From: Acarospora socialis
Lineage: Eukaryota; Ascomycota; Lecanoromycetes; Acarosporales; Acarosporaceae
NCBI GenBank assembly: GCA_025617375.2
Contig: JAMYGW020000002.1
Location: forward strand, 2,852,001 to 2,916,000
Direction: 5' to 3'
DNA length: 64,000 nucleotides
A model generated the notes under the pieces. It worked only from the letters and a program-made list of their open reading frames with translations, ran no database searches and was not told where the DNA came from. A program made the translations under genes and the position numbers. This document shows positions 1-64,000 of this stretch, one piece after another; position 1 is the stretch's first letter; each line of letters starts with the position of its first letter.

Positions 1-2312
1 TGACGTTGACCGCATGAGTGTGTCCTCCGTTAGGCAGATTGGAAACATCCAGGACAGCGACGGAAGACGGAAGAGCTAGGTCGCCAGTTTTTGTGACGGT
101 CGTCGTGTTGACCAGGACTGCTGCAGGCTTGCAGTCGGCGACAATGACTTGCAGTCTTTCGGCAGGAATGTTGACGTCCAGTGGCGCGTAGATGGCGCCG
201 ATTCGGAGAATGGCTAGGAGTGAGAAGACGAGGCGCGCCGACGCCTCTTGAAAGACAGCAACAACAGAGCCCTTGGTGACACTCGCATCAAGGAGTGCCG
301 ATGAGATGCGGTTGACCTCTGCACTGAGTTGCTGGTAGGTCCACGACCGGCCGGTGATCTCCTTGAGAGAAACCGCCTTGGGGAGTTCAGCGATGATGTT
401 GTCGATGCGGCCTGGCAATGTCCCTGGCCAGCTAGAAGGCAAAACGGGGCCTAAAAGAGGTCAATACGAAACATTACGAGAGGACGAAAAAAACTTATTT
501 TGACCAAGCTGGACCGCATGGTTAATATCCTCCATCGAAAAGAGCGAGATATCTTTCAACGGCTGTCCCGACATCCGACAAACATCCCCCAGCAGCCTAA
601 AGTACATGTCCAGGACCTTGTTCGTCTCCCCTCCCCATAGAGACCCTTCTGCAACATGAGAATCACCCTGGTATCATGTCCCGGATTCTCAATAATATCT
701 AACGATATATCATACCCGGACCTTGGCAGCGAGATCTCCTGCATCTTGCCCGTCGCCCCATCGAATCTCCGCGTCTCGCTCACCCTCTGGCGGTAGTTGA
801 TAAACGCCTGGAACAGCGGACTGAACGACGTCGGCCGCTCGCAATCTATGTTTTCCAGAAGAACATCGAACGGTAGCCGCGAGTGCGACATGGCGAGGTA
901 AGCCTTGCGGCGCGTCTCCTTGAGGACAGCCTCGAAGGTCTGGGTGCCGTCGAGGTGGAAGCGAAGCGGCAGCAGGTTTAGGTACATGCCGATGCTCTCG
1001 GCCACGCGGTCGTCCCAGCGGTTGGCGTCGGCCATGCCGATGCAGACGTCGGCGGTACCGAGGAGCTTGAAGAGGAGGATTTCGAAGACACCGAGGTAGA
1101 AGTGGAACACGTTGGCCTTGAGGCGGTGGCAAGTGTCTTCGATTTGCTTAGCGAGGGCGGGGAGCACGGTGCGGCTGAAGGAGGTGTGCGAGTACTCGGC
1201 GAGGGGGCTGCGGGTTTTGGTGGAGGAAAAGGGGAGGAGGGGGAGGGGTGCCGGGTGGTTAGCGAGCTCGGACTTCCAGTAGTCGATGTCGTTTTGAAGG
1301 CTGCCGGAGGAGATTTCCTGGCGAAGTTTCTCCGAGTAGTCGGAGTACTGGAAGACGTCCTCGGGGAGGGTCTGACCGTTGTAGGCGCGCTGGAGGACGT
1401 TAAGAAAGACTTCGAGGCTGATGCCATCGAGAATAATATGGTGCGAGCCGATGAGGAGCCAGCTCTTGGTGGGTGTTAGCGAGAGGTGGATCAGGCGCAT
1501 GCATTCGCCGTGCTCGATGTCGTAGATGTGGTTCTTCAGCTTTTCGAACTCCTCGACGACTTGGGACTCATCGGCGATAGCCGTTCTCTCCAGATACAGG
1601 CGGGATGTTTCCGAGATGGCCTGGACCGGCTTCTGGTCCTCATCGGTGAAGAAGGAAGTGCGAAAGGCCTCGTGGCGAGCAGCGATCTTGTGCACCGCGC
1701 CCCCGAGACTGTCGAGGCGAATCGTGCCCTCGATCGAGACAGAGATGGTGCTGTTGGCCGTTGTTTGGTCCTCCATTAGCTGCTTGAGAAACCAGAACCT
1801 CGACTGTCCAGGTGAGATAGGGATGATCTTTTCGAAGTCGGTCCGTGAGACATTGTTGAGAGGGGGCGCAGTCAATGGCTCCGTCTTGTTGTGCCCGTCG
1901 TCAAGCTGGCTAGTAGCCGCACCCACGGAGCTGTCATTGTCGTCGCCTGTCTGGCTCGTTCCATTGCTGCCGCTTGTCAGGATGATGCTCGGCACCGAGG
2001 AGTGCGAGTCTGAAGTCAGCTGGGCGGGAGCGGATTCACTCTCCTCAGAGGTAGTCGAGGCCTCGCGGTTCTGATTGGGAGTCAGCTTGGCAGGTATGTT
2101 CTCGAGCGCATAGTCGAGCAGTTGGGCAACTGAGCCTCCCGACAGGACCTTGAAGACGGGAATCTCGGTCTCGATCTCCTTGGTGAACCAGGAGCGGATC
2201 TCGACGGCGATCAAGGGGTCGACTCCGAGATCATCTAGCCCCGAAGCCAAGACCTGCGATTTCTCGGTCTCGGCCGGAAGCTATAGGGAGACCTGCAGCT
2301 TTTGGAAAAAGG
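1..2312 (-). pseudogene. Broken PKS-NRPS hybrid synthase remnant (ACP - condensation - start of adenylation), partial at left edge
   Basis: Read on the minus strand this is the middle of a fungal iterative PKS-NRPS megasynthase: an acyl carrier protein domain (about 2310-2100), a Ser/Thr-rich linker, a full-looking NRPS condensation domain (about 1840-560) with its HHxxxDG-type motif (HHIILDG, near 1445), then, after an intron-like break near 440-500, the beginning of an adenylation domain that leaves the window. In known hybrids this part condenses a polyketide with an amino acid to give a tetramic acid-type product. The whole KS-AT-DH-MT-KR half that should precede the ACP is missing; a regulator fragment sits there instead. 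The remaining part is also broken, with about three disabling lesions, which I do not itemise because the product could have been a toxin. Family call is firm; product unknown. Confidence 0.88.
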
Positions 2313-2578
2313 CGTCTATCGCATGTTAGCATAACACCAATCAAACACGAGCAGTTCCAACACTCGCGTCGTTCCTTGCCAGTGTCACCGCGTTGGGGGC
2401 GGCCCATTCGAACATTGGGGTCCGCGATGCACATTGCCCCTGTCTTTTGACGTCTTTCGCATCCCTGTGGTGCTCGTATACATCGCAGTTTCTGGCCTCT
2501 GCATCTTTCACAGGCTGCTGTGTGTTGCCGTTTTGTCTTGGCGACACGATTAAGATCCGATGCATCTGTGGAGGCCAT
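2313..2578 (-). pseudogene. Zn2Cys6 transcription factor, N-terminal fragment
   Basis: An ATG at 2578 opens about 80 residues that start with a Zn2Cys6 binuclear cluster of the AflR-like kind: the first half reads CERCRGQKLRC (CX2CX6C), followed by a short loop and the second half. In the second half the fifth of the six cysteines is arginine (CERR where CxRC is usual), so zinc binding is doubtful. A GRP basic patch follows the cluster. Nothing of the long middle homology region or activation domain follows; the same strand runs straight into the PKS-NRPS carrier domain. Such factors normally control the neighbouring biosynthetic cluster. I infer that a deletion joined the 5' end of the cluster regulator to the 3' half of the synthase gene. 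The exact 3' end is arbitrary. Confidence 0.7.
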
Positions 2579-3655
2579 GTCCGTCCGAGACTCCAGTTCT
2601 CCGTCGACCAAAGAGGTGAAGAAGAGGTAAAAGTGGAAATGAATTTGAAGTAATCAGGTATTTCCGGCATCGTATATCGAGCCGGGTACCTGCAATAATC
2701 ACAGACTCACAGACCTAAGTCCCCAGTTTTGAAACAGACCGGGGTCGCAGGAATATCCTGGCTTTTAAGCCCGGGTAGTGCTTCTCACGGTCGATTAATA
2801 TTATTGTTTGATCTGAGAGGGATTGAGGCGTAGTACTCTGCCTTGCCCGATTATTGCTCGGTTGACGTGGCCAACACCGAGTCAAGAACCGCGCCGCTGG
2901 GGGCCAAAGGCTACTGTAGGAAGGGACAGTAGTATTCTTGGGAGCAGCCAACGAAATTGAATGCATCATCTGGACATCAAGCCTGCTCTTTTGAATGTTG
3001 TTGTTCCTGATGCAGGTGGAGAAGTAGCGCTTAGTACCGTATACGGTTGAACCCTAAGTATATGTTGGAGTTAAGGTTTACTACACAGAATGACGACCCA
3101 ATTGAATGATATCGCCTGAGCTGACATGAACAGCAAGTCGGATTACGACCCGGGGCGAGGCTACAAGGCTCTGGTCACCACTACACAGTAGTAAGTTTTT
3201 TCCCGAGCGATCCCCCTTCATATTGCCCTCTCAGCTTTCGGTCAGCTCACGTGCTCTCGCGTGGTCCCGATCGTGCATTATGATAGTTATACGTTAAGGC
3301 TGCAGGGGTCGCAGGGATCCCGATCCTGCGGTCTATCCCCCAAAGGTGCTGGCTTTACAGTACCATGGTACAGCGCCTTCGCGACTAGCCGTATCGTAAC
3401 GATATATTCCAACAAAGCCGGGACAGCAAACAACCCGAGTTCTATGTGACGGGATGCCTCCCCATCTCACATTAGTAGTGATATATGTATCTTAACTTCT
3501 TCCACCTAGTACTCAATCAATCTATCTCGCCTCTTCACATTTTGCATCTCCTAGTCTACTCAAATGCCATAGCCTGTAGATGAACAGTATCTCATTCTCC
3601 CCTTTTCCCTTTTCGTTTTTTGTCATTTTCTTTGTCAACTGTGAGGCTCCAGAAG
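2579..3655. promoter_or_regulatory. Gap upstream of MFS exporter, with an E-box
   Basis: No convincing gene. The last 400 bases are the promoter of the exporter at 3656: pyrimidine-rich tracts lie just before the ATG and a palindromic CACGTG E-box lies at 3248-3253. An open frame on the minus strand near 2715-2969 has no recognisable domain. Confidence 0.5.
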
Positions 3656-5441
3656 ATGGCTGTAGACGCCGGGACCACGGCGACAACATTACCAGTCACC
3701 AACATGACAAAGGAGCCAGACGCGGGCAAGAGCCATCAGAGTGATATCGCCGCAGATATAACCGCAGCTGATGAGCAAAACCAGGCATCCGATGACTCTG
3801 AGGCCAAGCCGACAACGACAAAGAAGTCCTTTGGCTTCTACGCCATCATCTTGGCCCTCGCCCTGACCAGTCTCCTGACCTCGCTGGAGGCGACCATCAC
3901 GTCCACGGCGCTGCCTACCATCACGGCCGATCTTGGAGGTGCCAGTCTCTACGTCTGGGTTGTCAATGGCTACTATCTGACCCAGTAGGCACAACACTTC
4001 CCCGTGCGCGTCTGATATTCACTAACAGTGGCCTAGAACGGCCTTCCAGCCCTTTGTTGGACAGATGGCCGACATCTACGGCCGCCGATGGCCCATGATC
4101 ACGAGCGCAGCCATGTTCACCATCGGCAGCGGCGTCGCGGGAGGATCCAAGAACATCGAAACGCTCATCGCGGGCCGCCTCCTCCAAGGGATCGGTAGTG
4201 GCGGGATCCTCGTCCTCACCGAGATCATCATCTGCGACCTTCTCCCTCTGCGCGAGCGAGGCAAATACCTGGGCATGATTGTCAGCCTCGTGGGAGTCGG
4301 CGCCGCCTTGGGACCACTCTTCGGGGGGCTCATCGTGCAATACTCTTCATGGCCGTGGGTCTTTTACCTCAACGTTCCCATCGGCGGAGTGGCGTGCATT
4401 ATGCTCTTCGCCTTCCTCCGCGTCAAGTCAGACAAGACACCCGACTACATACAGCGCCTGCGTCGCTTCGACTGGATCGGCAACGCGCTCTTTGTCCTGT
4501 CCATGGTCTCGATCCTCATCGCCCTGTCGTGGGCCGGGACGCAATACGCGTGGTCCTCTTACCACGTCGTCGTCCCCCTGGTGCTGGGGTTCGTGGGCTC
4601 CGCGGTCTTTGTGTTCTACGAGGCCTCGAGCCTCTGTGTCAACCCGACCATGCCGCTGCACATATTTGCCAACCGTACGTCGGGAACCGCGTTCGCTGTC
4701 ACCTTTCTGCACACGCTCTCCAGCGTGTCGGTCATGTACTTCTTACCTGTGTATTTCCAGGCGGTGCTCAACGCGACACCTTCCCGCTCCGGTGTCCAGC
4801 TTCTCCCGACCATTTTGTTCATGATCCCCGGTGCTATCGCCGGCGGAACCTTGCTCTCCAAATTCGGCCGCTACCGTCCCCTCCAGCACGGGGGCCTCGC
4901 GCTGATGATCATCGGGTTCGGTCTCCTGACCCTCCTCGACGCCGACTCCAACACAGGACAGTGGGTGGGCTACCAACTTCTCGGTGCGTTGGGCACGGGT
5001 CTTGCGCTGCCGGTTCTTCTCCCCGCGGTCCAGGCCCCACTTACCGAAGAGGATACGGCGCTGTGCACTGCGACGTGGTCCTTCATGCGCACTTATGGCT
5101 TTATCTGGGGCGCAACCATTGCCACGGCCGTTTTCAACAATCGGTTCGACGTTCTGGCACCACGCATTACCGACACCGCCATCGGTAGCCAGCTCACTAA
5201 TGGGCGGGCGTACGGGTATGCCACTAAGATCTTTATCAACTCCATCGCGGATCCCGTCACGATCACGGAGGTCCGGTCCGTTTACGTGGATGCGCTTAAT
5301 GTGGTTTGGTATGTGAGTTTGGCTTTCGCGGGCCTGGGATTCCTGCTGGTGTTCTTGGAGAAGGAAGTTCCCCTAAGAAAAGAGCTCGACACTAAGTTCT
5401 CCATGGAGGGAAAGGAAAAGCAGTCCAAGACAGAGGCATGA
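3656..5441 (+). CDS. MFS drug/toxin efflux transporter (DHA2-like, 14 TM type), 2 exons
   Basis: Proposed CDS join(3656..3984,4037..5441), 577 residues. The 52-base intron starts GTAGGC and ends CCTAG with a CTAAC branch site; frame is kept. A charged N-terminal tail of about 60 residues precedes many hydrophobic helices. The motif-A signature GQMADIYGRR lies near residue 117 and the TSTALPTI stretch in helix 1 is typical of fungal 14-helix exporters of the AflT/TRI12/GliA type, which sit in the plasma membrane and expel secondary metabolites by proton antiport. The longer open frame begins at a TTG; the ATG at 3656 follows a pyrimidine-rich leader and is preferred. It lies between the PKS-NRPS remnant and the cluster-type hydrolase, so it was probably the exporter of that pathway, yet it looks intact. 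Substrate cannot be told from sequence. Confidence 0.88.
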
Positions 5442-60669: not shown

Positions 60670-61160
60670 TTCGGATTGGACCAATTGAAGGTGAACGACC
60701 AAATCTGTCGGCGGATATCTTGGTCACTTGCGTGATGGAAGCGTAGATGAGCGGAAATCCAGGATTCTCTGCTCCGGCACAAGGTAGTAAACCCCTCCAA
60801 GCTTTAGCTGCGCATCATATGTATTGGTAGATGAGTATCCGTCAGATAGTTGGGACTAAATATCCCCAGCATACGAGCACCAGCGGCGACAAGGCAGTTA
60901 CGAAACAATTGAGCAAGAAATCACCATACTTCAAGGCGTATGAAAACCAAGGCGCACCAAGTGACAAGAGAATGTCGACGGCTGAGAGACTAGGAAGCGG
61001 AGAAAAAGAAAAGCAAAGAGTTGACGGCACATTCATCCCTACTGCAATCAATTAGACATAACTTGTAAGCGCTGCCCTGCCGTTCTCGCAGTGTGCAGGG
61101 GCTCTGATACGGCAGCCTATATCGAGCAAAGGGCAATAACCCATTTCGCAATTTCGCAAA
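60670..61160. other. Last normal-composition DNA before the AT-rich block
   Basis: 0.49 kb. Promoter of the Pro/Tyr-rich gene at left; an open frame at 60831-61055 (plus) has no domain. The last CG dinucleotide of the window is at 61155-61156. Confidence 0.45.
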
Positions 61161-61200
61161 ATCAAAAATCAAAAATCAAAAACTGAAAATCAAAAATCAC
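61157..61200. repeat. AAAATC/CAAAAAT simple repeat at the edge of the AT-rich block
   Basis: About six imperfect units of CAAAAAT/GAAAATC in tandem, immediately after the last CG dinucleotide of the window. It marks the junction between normal DNA and the AT-rich block. Confidence 0.75.
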
Positions 61201-64000
61201 AAGTCCACCCACAACAACACTGACAATAAACCATTGAATAATTCACCACAAGACATATCATCCATAGTCATTAACATTCTCATATCAATATGAAGTTCTC
61301 AACAACAACTTTGCACATCACAGTCTATGTGTTTTCTTCTTCAGCTTGAGCCAAAATTTCAATTGAAAAAATTAGATGTACAAAGCATCAGAAAGAATTT
61401 GATCTCTTATGAAGATCTTTTGATTACATGCTTCATGAGTTACATCATGAAAGAACTGCACACATATTTTCTTGCTTAAGACTTCACAACATCTCTAAAG
61501 TCTTACTGACATCTACAGCAGCAAATTGTCTTTGACTTTGACTTCAACTCTCATGTGTACATTCATCTCAAGTCTATTACATATTCAGATGAAATCATGA
61601 AACAAAACTGAATCTTACATCTCATTGATGAAAACAATTGAGACATTTACTCACAACTGTAAAAGCATAAATCATCAACATCAAGAATCTAAGTGACTGT
61701 CTTCAGTACTTGATGTAGCACTTGAATGGCAGATAAGATCTGAAAATGTTAAGACTGATATGTATGAGAAGTGATTCTGCTTAAGCAGTCAGTTGAATAT
61801 GAAAAACATTTTCTCATATGAAATTGTGACACAGATATCTTTCTTAACTTTAATATCTTATGATCTCAGCAGTTTCTTCTCAGCACTTAAGTCAAACTGA
61901 TTGTTTATGTTCAAAAGCAAGATTGAATTGATGAAGTCTGATATGAAGAATTAAAAATCAAGAATTAAGTCAGTCAATGTGTACAGTTAACTATGAACTG
62001 AGTACAAAGCATGACTGCTGAACAGAACAAAGATTTCATAAAAAATAAAATATTAGCAAGAGATTTTAGAGAAGTCAAGCAGATATGACTTGTATGAAGA
62101 CTATGAATCTATGAGACTACTGTATTTACAAATCAAGAAGATTGAAGTCTTCATATCAGTATGAAATCTCACAATCTTATAGTGTAAATACAAAAGACAA
62201 TGTCAGATATTCACATCAATAACAATATCAATGTTCTTTCTGTACTCATATCTATTGTTGATATGCAGTGTGTATATAAATGACTTAGTTTGTTGAGCAT
62301 AAAAAGTATAGTTTCAGAAGTTAATCTTAAGAATATAATAACAATAAGTGTCACAGTGACAGTATAATAGAGAGATAGAATTATTAAGATAGAAACTATA
62401 TAACTATGATCTCTGTGAATCTATGACAACACTGTGAATTGTTTTTCATAGAATTTTAAGATGCAATCTAAGAGAATGTAACTATATAATCTTTGAACTG
62501 ACATTGAAGCTTGAGTTCTAAAATCAGCTAATTTTCTTTTTGCTGCATACTTTTGCTTTATCACACTATTCTTTCTGTGATGATTGAGTTTTGTGCTTTG
62601 ATGACTCACTTGTGAACAACTGAGATTGTGTTTATTTCTGTATAAACTTTGATTGTAATTTGATTTCAGTTTCAGTTCTAGTATCAGTATAATTTAAGCA
62701 ATAATGAATTAAGTTCTCTTCTGATGTGAAAGTCTCAGCTATTGACTGCTTTTAGTTATTAAGTCAGTTAATATTTATATTAATATGACAGAATGATATG
62801 AATATTCATATTATGAACTTAAGAAGTATTGAAGATCTAGACTCAGAAGTGAATGCAGATGTTTGTGAATTTACATTCTTGATGAGATTGATCTTATCAG
62901 ATATGATCATGTCAAGATCATTATAAGAGTCAGTCTTTCAGTTATTGACTTCATCATTGCTGACAGTAGTATGAACATTGTCTTACTCATTGAGTAACAG
63001 ACTTGTGACTTTCTGTTTTTTCTTGTTCAGTTTTAAACAGATAATTAATACATGCTTTGCTTCTGAAATGAAGAATGCACTCTGTACTGATATGAGACTT
63101 CTTTTTGACAGTGATTTCTCATTTAATTAGTATGTTCTTCACAGAAGATTTCTGTTTGATTGTTGTTCTTTTTTTATTAGATATTTCATCATCATTAAGA
63201 GATTCTTGCTTGATGCAATACATCTTTTGAGACTTGAGACTGATTGTCATAGAAGTAATAAATTTGAACTTACTTTGACTAACTGTGTTGAACTGCTTCT
63301 CAACAATAAAATAGATGATTCAGTAAGATGCAGAAGTTTTCTTGAGATGAATAAGTAATTCACTAATATTCATAACTACTTGAGTCTGAATCAGCAGATG
63401 TATGATCTCAGTTTTATTACTTTATTTATGAACTAAATATGATTCACACAGTTGATTCTTTGATATCTCTGCATATGATTTCACTTAAGATAGAAGACAA
63501 TGTTATATAAAGTCTTTAAGACTGTCAATGTATGCATTAAAAATCTATACACAAGTTCAATCTAGAGAAGAAAGAGTTAGTGTCTTGCTTTATATTAATA
63601 TAAGAGTAACTTATGAAAGATCTTTCATTTTCAGTCTTTGTCACTAATCAGTGACTTGTCATCATCATAAGATTGCAAAGTCAGAATAAAGAACAAATCA
63701 AAGTGATATTGAAATGCAACAACTTGATCAACTGAATGTTTTGTGCTTCTGTTGATTGAATCAGCTGAAAATTTACTTTTAAACTTGCTGATTGTACAGA
63801 ATGCTTTTGACTGATGTTTCTCAGTTTAATAATGATTCAGTTGAGAGAAATAAGCTGATGTTGACTGTAATGTTGCTTTAGTTGAGAATAGATGATCTGA
63901 TGAATTATAAAGATCAATTATCTCAGCTGTATCTGTGTGCAACAGTTTGAAAGACAACAAAGACTTAGAAAAATTGTAATGTAAGTTTAATACATCACAG
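61161..64000. other. AT-rich gene-free block without CG, CC and (almost) GG dinucleotides
   Basis: About 32% GC by hand count of a sample line; runs off the right edge. Reading every line from 61353 onward I find no CG, no CC and a single GG (61728-61729), whereas CA, CT, TG, AG, GA, TC and GC are frequent. So every C is followed by A or T, and every G but one is preceded by A or T. No open frame of more than about 60 codons; no tandem repeat, transposon end or RNA gene recognised. The composition fits a sequence (perhaps a repeat) driven to saturation by C-to-T change at CpG and CpC. What it was before cannot be told. Confidence 0.85.

Follow-up and report, generated by a model that had tools for sequence, protein, structure and literature searches.

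Candidate RIP-like mutation of CpG and CpC in repeats of Acarospora socialis

In the repeat-induced point mutation (RIP) of Neurospora crassa, the cytosine contexts rank CpA>CpT>CpG>CpC (as cited in PMC5496416; this and the other papers cited here are drawn on in excerpt), and a survey from 2025 describes the preference of RIP for CpA as shared (PMC12543289). In Trichoderma reesei CpA is about as strong a site as CpG, with CpC below CpT (PMC5496416), and in the transposable elements (TEs) of the basidiomycetes Microbotryum, Melampsora and Puccinia CpG is the sole C-to-T signature, a Masc2-type Dnmt1 gene being the only one found (PMC4352252). For Coccidioides, CpG and CpC are named as the main sites of repeat mutation, with gypsy transposons as the commonest type (PMC9409882). 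Here we examine a block at positions 61353–64000 of a 64,000-nucleotide window (the whole stretch of DNA analysed, from contig JAMYGW020000002.1 of Acarospora socialis), for which an original prediction had reported a near-complete lack of CpC, GpG and CpG and had called CpC a non-standard RIP context. The latter point falls with the Coccidioides report: the kind of process is already known, and what this locus adds is a distant lineage, the completeness of the loss and the order of its steps.

Dinucleotide loss in the block and the wider region

The block (2648 bp) holds no CC, no CG and a single GG (61728–61729, forward strand) by dinucleotide count, where its base content predicts 48.9, 57.0 and 66.3, respectively, in agreement with the earlier counts and their expectation of dozens. 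Its G content of 15.8% fits the 15–16% originally given for both bases, while that of C (13.6%) lies slightly below it. Low guanine-plus-cytosine (GC) content alone was rejected as an explanation since GpC is at expectation (53, observed-to-expected ratio 0.93), and the loss is context-specific, as had been proposed. CA (183, ratio 1.46) and TG (234, 1.56) are enriched, the opposite of a Neurospora-type CpA loss and again as first noted, and TA is reduced (220, 0.67). The remainder of the window is normal, with ratios of 0.88 for CG and 0.98 for both CC and GG. On its left the block is bordered by a transition zone of about 200 bp (61157–61352), in which 50-bp counts find CG and GG gone and a few CC left; the final CC before the block lies at 61351 and the final CG at 61155, and composition is normal to the left of the zone.

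Beyond the window the block reaches about 2937.7 kb on the same contig (C2), and more blocks extend the series to about 3042 kb, with islands between them that have a GC content of about 0.5 and near-normal CG and CC. As an unselected test, 200 one-kb bins of C2:2906001–3106000 were sorted by GC and not by CC or CG, giving 100 bins below 0.32, 6 intermediate bins (0.32–0.40) and 94 GC-rich bins. The 100 AT-rich bins contain 3 CG where about 1942 would be expected (98 of them have none) and 48 CC+GG against about 3883 (79 are without any), with GpC at 1989 against about 1942, so that other AT-rich blocks share the loss described for the first. Depletion of CpG only was likewise rejected, CpC being almost as absent as CpG at the end state. 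The longest run free of CG, CC and GG in this region is 19471 bp. Segments chosen for low CC/CG (103.2 kb in sum, about 0.7 kb of it counted twice) contain 0 CG, 12 CC and 13 GG, and we prefer the unselected bins to them. Saturated bins stay at about 23–31% GC since most CpA and CpT survive. In the saturated segments of the same region CTA/TAG is depleted (ratio 0.62) and CAG/CTG enriched (1.28). These counts, together with the alignments below, cover a few hundred kb of a 31.15-Mb genome in 38 contigs.

That such a pattern could be an artefact of chemical conversion, assembly error or contamination has next to no probability. We found no point in favour of it; the loss is restricted to CpG and CpC, on both strands, while CpA, CpT and GpC remain, CC is kept in the islands and in a telomere repeat that adjoins a saturated copy, and copies at differing stages are spread over 15 contigs.

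Sequence context and order of the changes

The genome contains at least 148 RVT_2 and at least 151 RVT_1 matches; among the matches listed, those of RVT_2 carry stops, 23 RVT_1 frames are stop-free and most other RVT_1 matches have several stops. On the basis of these matches and of mutual alignability we labelled copies Gypsy-, Copia- and LINE-type, the labels being our own. Copies were aligned in pairs, with the less mutated copy serving as a proxy for the starting state, and C-to-T changes were tabulated on both strands by the 3' base, which was required to be unchanged. From a GC-rich Copia-type copy (L039) to a saturated one (L040), change affected 61/61 CpG and 106/106 CpC sites, against 49/196 CpA and 36/182 CpT, and the reverse direction gave 3/150 CpA and 3/149 CpT. 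Almost all substitutions between the two (332 of 365) are C>T or G>A (178 and 154). A second saturated old copy, compared with L039 in the same way, has changed at 85/85 CpG, 124/124 CpC, 60/265 CpA and 59/248 CpT. The aligned old copies therefore bear out the proposed loss, on both strands, of every C that precedes C or G, and CpA is not the main mutated site; the sparing of CpA and CpT that the original prediction implied does not hold, as some 20–25% of these sites have changed in the oldest copies. C-to-T and G-to-A transitions on both strands of repeats, as in RIP, are thus present without CpA being the preferred site, which excludes canonical CpA-type RIP but not RIP of another context. 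The repeats hit include Gypsy-, Copia- and LINE-type copies. In tables made without the 3'-neighbour rule, CAA and CTA are among the most often changed CpA/CpT sites, a weaker preference at the second base. An apparent CpA change of about 20% at all stages in such tables was set aside, as it is partly due to CpG dyads hit on opposite strands in two copies (CA versus TG).

Younger copies separate the contexts further. Three young LINE-type copies (L030, L031 and L032), which share the single reference L025 and are not independent, have together changed at 13/19 CpG, 119/274 CpC and 23/1650 CpA+CpT sites, with reverse values of 7/162 for CpC and 24/1651 for CpA+CpT; the rate at CpC is thus about 40 times that at CpA and CpT (together CpW), which have no net change yet. 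These copies are 94.6–97.5% identical to L025, have lost 31–64% of CpC and carry 0 to 5 transversions each. In less changed copies CpC has changed against L025 at 2/103 (L026), 9/104 (L029), 12/102 (L027), 12/96 (L028) and 22/94 (L033) sites. We regard it as most unlikely that this gradient arose by gradual, passive decay of old heterochromatin, in which methylated C deaminates spontaneously and no mutator is directed at repeats, even though such decay would accommodate the loss of CpA and CpT in the oldest copies. First, the three young copies already combine their CpC loss with no net CpW loss and so few transversions. Second, two saturated Gypsy-type copies of 6.2 kb stand 989 transitions and only 22 transversions apart, indicating near-identical insertions that were mutated separately, and a change that was fast relative to other mutation. 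Lastly, newly made CG, CC and GG are almost absent in saturated bins, which implies a recurring pressure or a recent change.

The LINE-type family L025–L033 lies on C1, C8, C5, C6, C2, C7 and C12, its stop-free members being mostly at C1:2.65–2.80 Mb, C14 and C10, with stop-free RVT_1 frames of up to 1329 amino acids. L025 and L026 are 99.55% identical to each other and nearly CpG-free (6 and 5 per 2 kb; ratios 0.10 and 0.08), with CpC near normal (0.83 and 0.84). Possibly the family survives through this scarcity of first-phase targets.

Hits on the two strands were randomly mixed in eight copy comparisons (P 0.25 to 0.80; some with few hits). This bears on a DNA cytosine deaminase, APOBEC-like or other, which with a CpC/CpG preference might attack repeats without a methyltransferase; CC is among the contexts generally known for deaminases, which speaks for it, but we give it only a slight chance given that CpG is the preferred site, that strand hits are mixed and not in tracts, and that a RID-type gene with conserved motifs is present (see below). 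A search of the genome for APOBEC_N returned 0 matches, as it did in control genomes, and is hence uninformative.

The order of the steps can be read from copies at different stages. For the Gypsy-type sample, 20 places among the listed RVT_1 matches were chosen, not at random but so as to cover many contigs, and joined to 3 earlier copies; L063 was dropped, as it aligned to none of L034, L035, L039 and L025, and the GC-rich L034 and L035 stand outside the resulting 22 AT-rich copies on 15 contigs. CG is zero in 22/22 of these, whereas CC+GG is graded from 47 to 1 per kb. One copy (L054) was retained even though it opens with 200 bp of telomere repeats, to which alone its CC+GG count of 64 is due, the count being 0 beyond them. 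At this place (C8:1–1000) about 200 bp of CCCTAA/TTAGGG repeat with intact CC/GG adjoins a Gypsy-type copy without CC or GG.

Site outcomes, pooled from two mutually related old copies, point the same way. The 45 CCG sites became CTG (16), TCA (13), TTG (8), TTA (4) and others (4), near the prediction for CpG first, and the 24 CCC sites became TTC (11), CTC (7), TCT (3), TTT (2) and CTT (1). Isolated CpG dyads (118) yielded TG 53 times, CA 45 times, TA 17 times and others 3 times. CpG was therefore mostly the first site hit, usually on just one strand of a dyad, and once its 3' neighbour had become T a C was largely protected. Simultaneous conversion of every C before C or G was rejected, as it does not predict the CTC and CTG outcomes. 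The eight TTG outcomes appear to leave room for some CpC-first events, though TTG could also arise by later change of CpT. The claim that CpC is lost as completely as CpG consequently stands, nearly so, for the end state but not for the rate: CpG goes first and CpC gradually later.

This order might also reflect two processes, CpG being lost by methylation and deamination (through DNMT5 or DIM-2, possibly during vegetative growth) and CpC in a separate, slower RID-driven step, a view we consider possible though somewhat doubtful. It would explain why CpG is zero in the sampled AT-rich Gypsy-type copies at any CpC level, and the genome has C5 methyltransferases of three types, one of them a DNMT5 type that carries an SNF2 domain. 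In Zymoseptoria, mitotic mutation is promoted by DIM2, and CG methylation is likely maintained by DNMT5 (PMC8016269). A single enzyme with graded preference would yield the same order, however, and Zymoseptoria CG sites are preferentially methylated yet not mutated at high rates (PMC8016269), so CpG loss need not follow from methylation alone.

Methyltransferase genes and the proposed process

Four PF00145 matches at three loci correspond to the RID-, DIM-2- and DNMT5-type genes whose presence the original prediction had proposed to check. The DIM-2-type locus (C3) matches PF00145 and PF25423, with BAH slightly under the cut-off, and its named relatives are called Dim-2. At the DNMT5-type locus (C8:612909–621000), PF00145 is followed downstream by PF00176 (SNF2-family); RING has no match there in Pfam, and the domains lie on frames not joined into one gene model. 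The RID-type locus (C2) matches PF00145 without its middle part (2–160 and 253–324, in P0002 and P0005), the missing part being as described for RID-type proteins. PPCQ, EN and QxRxR, which we take to be the catalytic motifs, occupy invariant columns when 9 of the 13 relatives identified are aligned with it, and by these motifs the locus carries a gene of the RID/Masc1 methyltransferase type. One TGA inside the match sits at GTGAGT in a gap of about 20–40 bases between two stretches that are covered on both sides by the full-length relatives P0013 and P0014, which makes an intron likely. The nearest named relative is Pleopsidium flavum (Acarosporales), with identities of 62% for DIM-2, 51% for RID over its length and 95% for RPC2, other database proteins being closer (73–98%). 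RPC2 is 80% identical to that of Coccidioides. With an Acarosporales lichen fungus as the nearest named relative, the hint of the original prediction at an Onygenales host is wrong.

We conclude, from sequence comparison, that a RIP-like C-to-T process very probably acts on both strands of repeats in this fungus, taking CpG first, CpC second and CpA/CpT last and slowly. This reading rests on C-to-T change on both strands, on the repeats that are hit and the islands that are spared, on the narrow border at 61157–61352, and on the presence of RID. The block would then be the edge of a hypermutated, retroelement-rich region. A targeted copy would lose all CpG, mostly through a hit on one strand per dyad to give TpG or CpA and less often TpA; repeated rounds would then turn CpC into TpC until hardly any remains, leaving DNA in which C is followed only by A or T. 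With less mutated copies as a stand-in for the start, the direction of change is probably the one given here, and repetition is the likely trigger. By analogy with Neurospora the process may be timed around mating, and the RID-type enzyme may be responsible for the unusual specificity, possibly joined by DIM-2 or DNMT5 at CpG. The unrecognised cytosine-mutating activity that had been proposed is not needed, though one may still contribute.

Several observations weigh against this conclusion. Not all repeats are hit, as the 23 stop-free frames among the listed RVT_1 matches and the hardly touched L025 and L026 attest, which suggests that the process is leaky or rare or that these copies are very young. 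The Gypsy-type L034 and L035 retain 70 and 85 CpG in 2 kb, and their distance from the mutated copies adds ordinary divergence to the CpW columns, where the counts in the two directions are about equal. One-strand tracts were not seen in the eight copy comparisons, some of which have few hits. Finally, the repeat origin of the block itself is suggested by its setting, in particular by a 6.2-kb Gypsy-type copy whose start lies 293 bp past the end of the window and of which the region holds further copies, in both orientations, with 79–84% identity. The 2.65 kb of the block that lie in the window match only short repeats elsewhere in the genome: the left end (61353–61589, forward strand) resembles one other place (237 bp; C14:414754–415001, 73% identical), and an unassigned 160-bp stretch (62280–62439, forward strand) occurs whole or in part at 14 other places on 7 contigs with 68–86% identity. 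Pfam found 0 families on six read-through frames of the block, and Rfam gave 0 matches in the window.

A more specific proposal goes further than the RIP-like process itself and we put it forward tentatively, as rather unlikely in full. The RIP enzyme of Acarosporales may have shifted, independently of Coccidioides, to target strictly those C that precede C or G, swapping the halves of the Neurospora order. Its action would have two phases, a prompt one at CpG that hits one strand of each dyad and a drawn-out one at CpC that takes many rounds. By hitting each new CpG or CpC as well, the enzyme would keep repeats in a state where C precedes only A or T.

At the other end of the window (556–5441), minus-strand frames that by eye resemble part of a large biosynthetic enzyme lie beside a plus-strand frame that looks transporter-like, perhaps a secondary-metabolite cluster.

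Implications and comparison with known systems

The usual RIP indices rest on change of CpA to TpA. In the mutated blocks TpA/ApT is low and (CpA+TpG)/(ApC+GpT) is high, and for this reason scans with these indices may miss such heavily mutated DNA. A lineage with CpG>CpC>>CpA beside relatives of the CpA type offers a comparison in which to look for the residues setting the site choice of RID or DIM-2, and the order fossilised within CCG and CCC sites allows mutational steps to be read from a single genome. In the open-licence literature searched, seen in excerpt, we found no report of CpG and CpC repeat mutation in lichen fungi.

In the lichen fungus Cladonia rangiformis, RIP regions span 100–500 kb and TE-derived windows peak near 16% GC (PMC12542154). 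That system is like the present one in its large RIP regions with sharp borders, its RID and DIM-2 homologues and its graded GC, and differs in the GC peak, against about 23–31% in the saturated bins here; the terms dinucleotide, CpA and TpA were not found in the text of that paper (PMC12542154). The TE bias of these basidiomycetes shares the CpG context but is CpG-only (PMC4352252), whereas CpG and CpC are affected here. Trichoderma reesei likewise has CpG as a strong target (PMC5496416), the difference being that here CpC comes second and CpA is mostly spared. With N. crassa, A. socialis shares C-to-T change on both strands of repeats, an AT-rich result and RID- and DIM-2-type genes, but its order of CpG>CpC>>CpA, CpT swaps the halves of the Neurospora order. 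For Coccidioides, Neafsey et al. in 2010, with ten isolates per species, reportedly called the process 'distinctly different' from that of Neurospora. The review excerpted for Coccidioides gives CpG and CpC as the main sites (PMC9409882), as we find here; Coccidioides belongs to a different class from this fungus (RPC2 80% identical).
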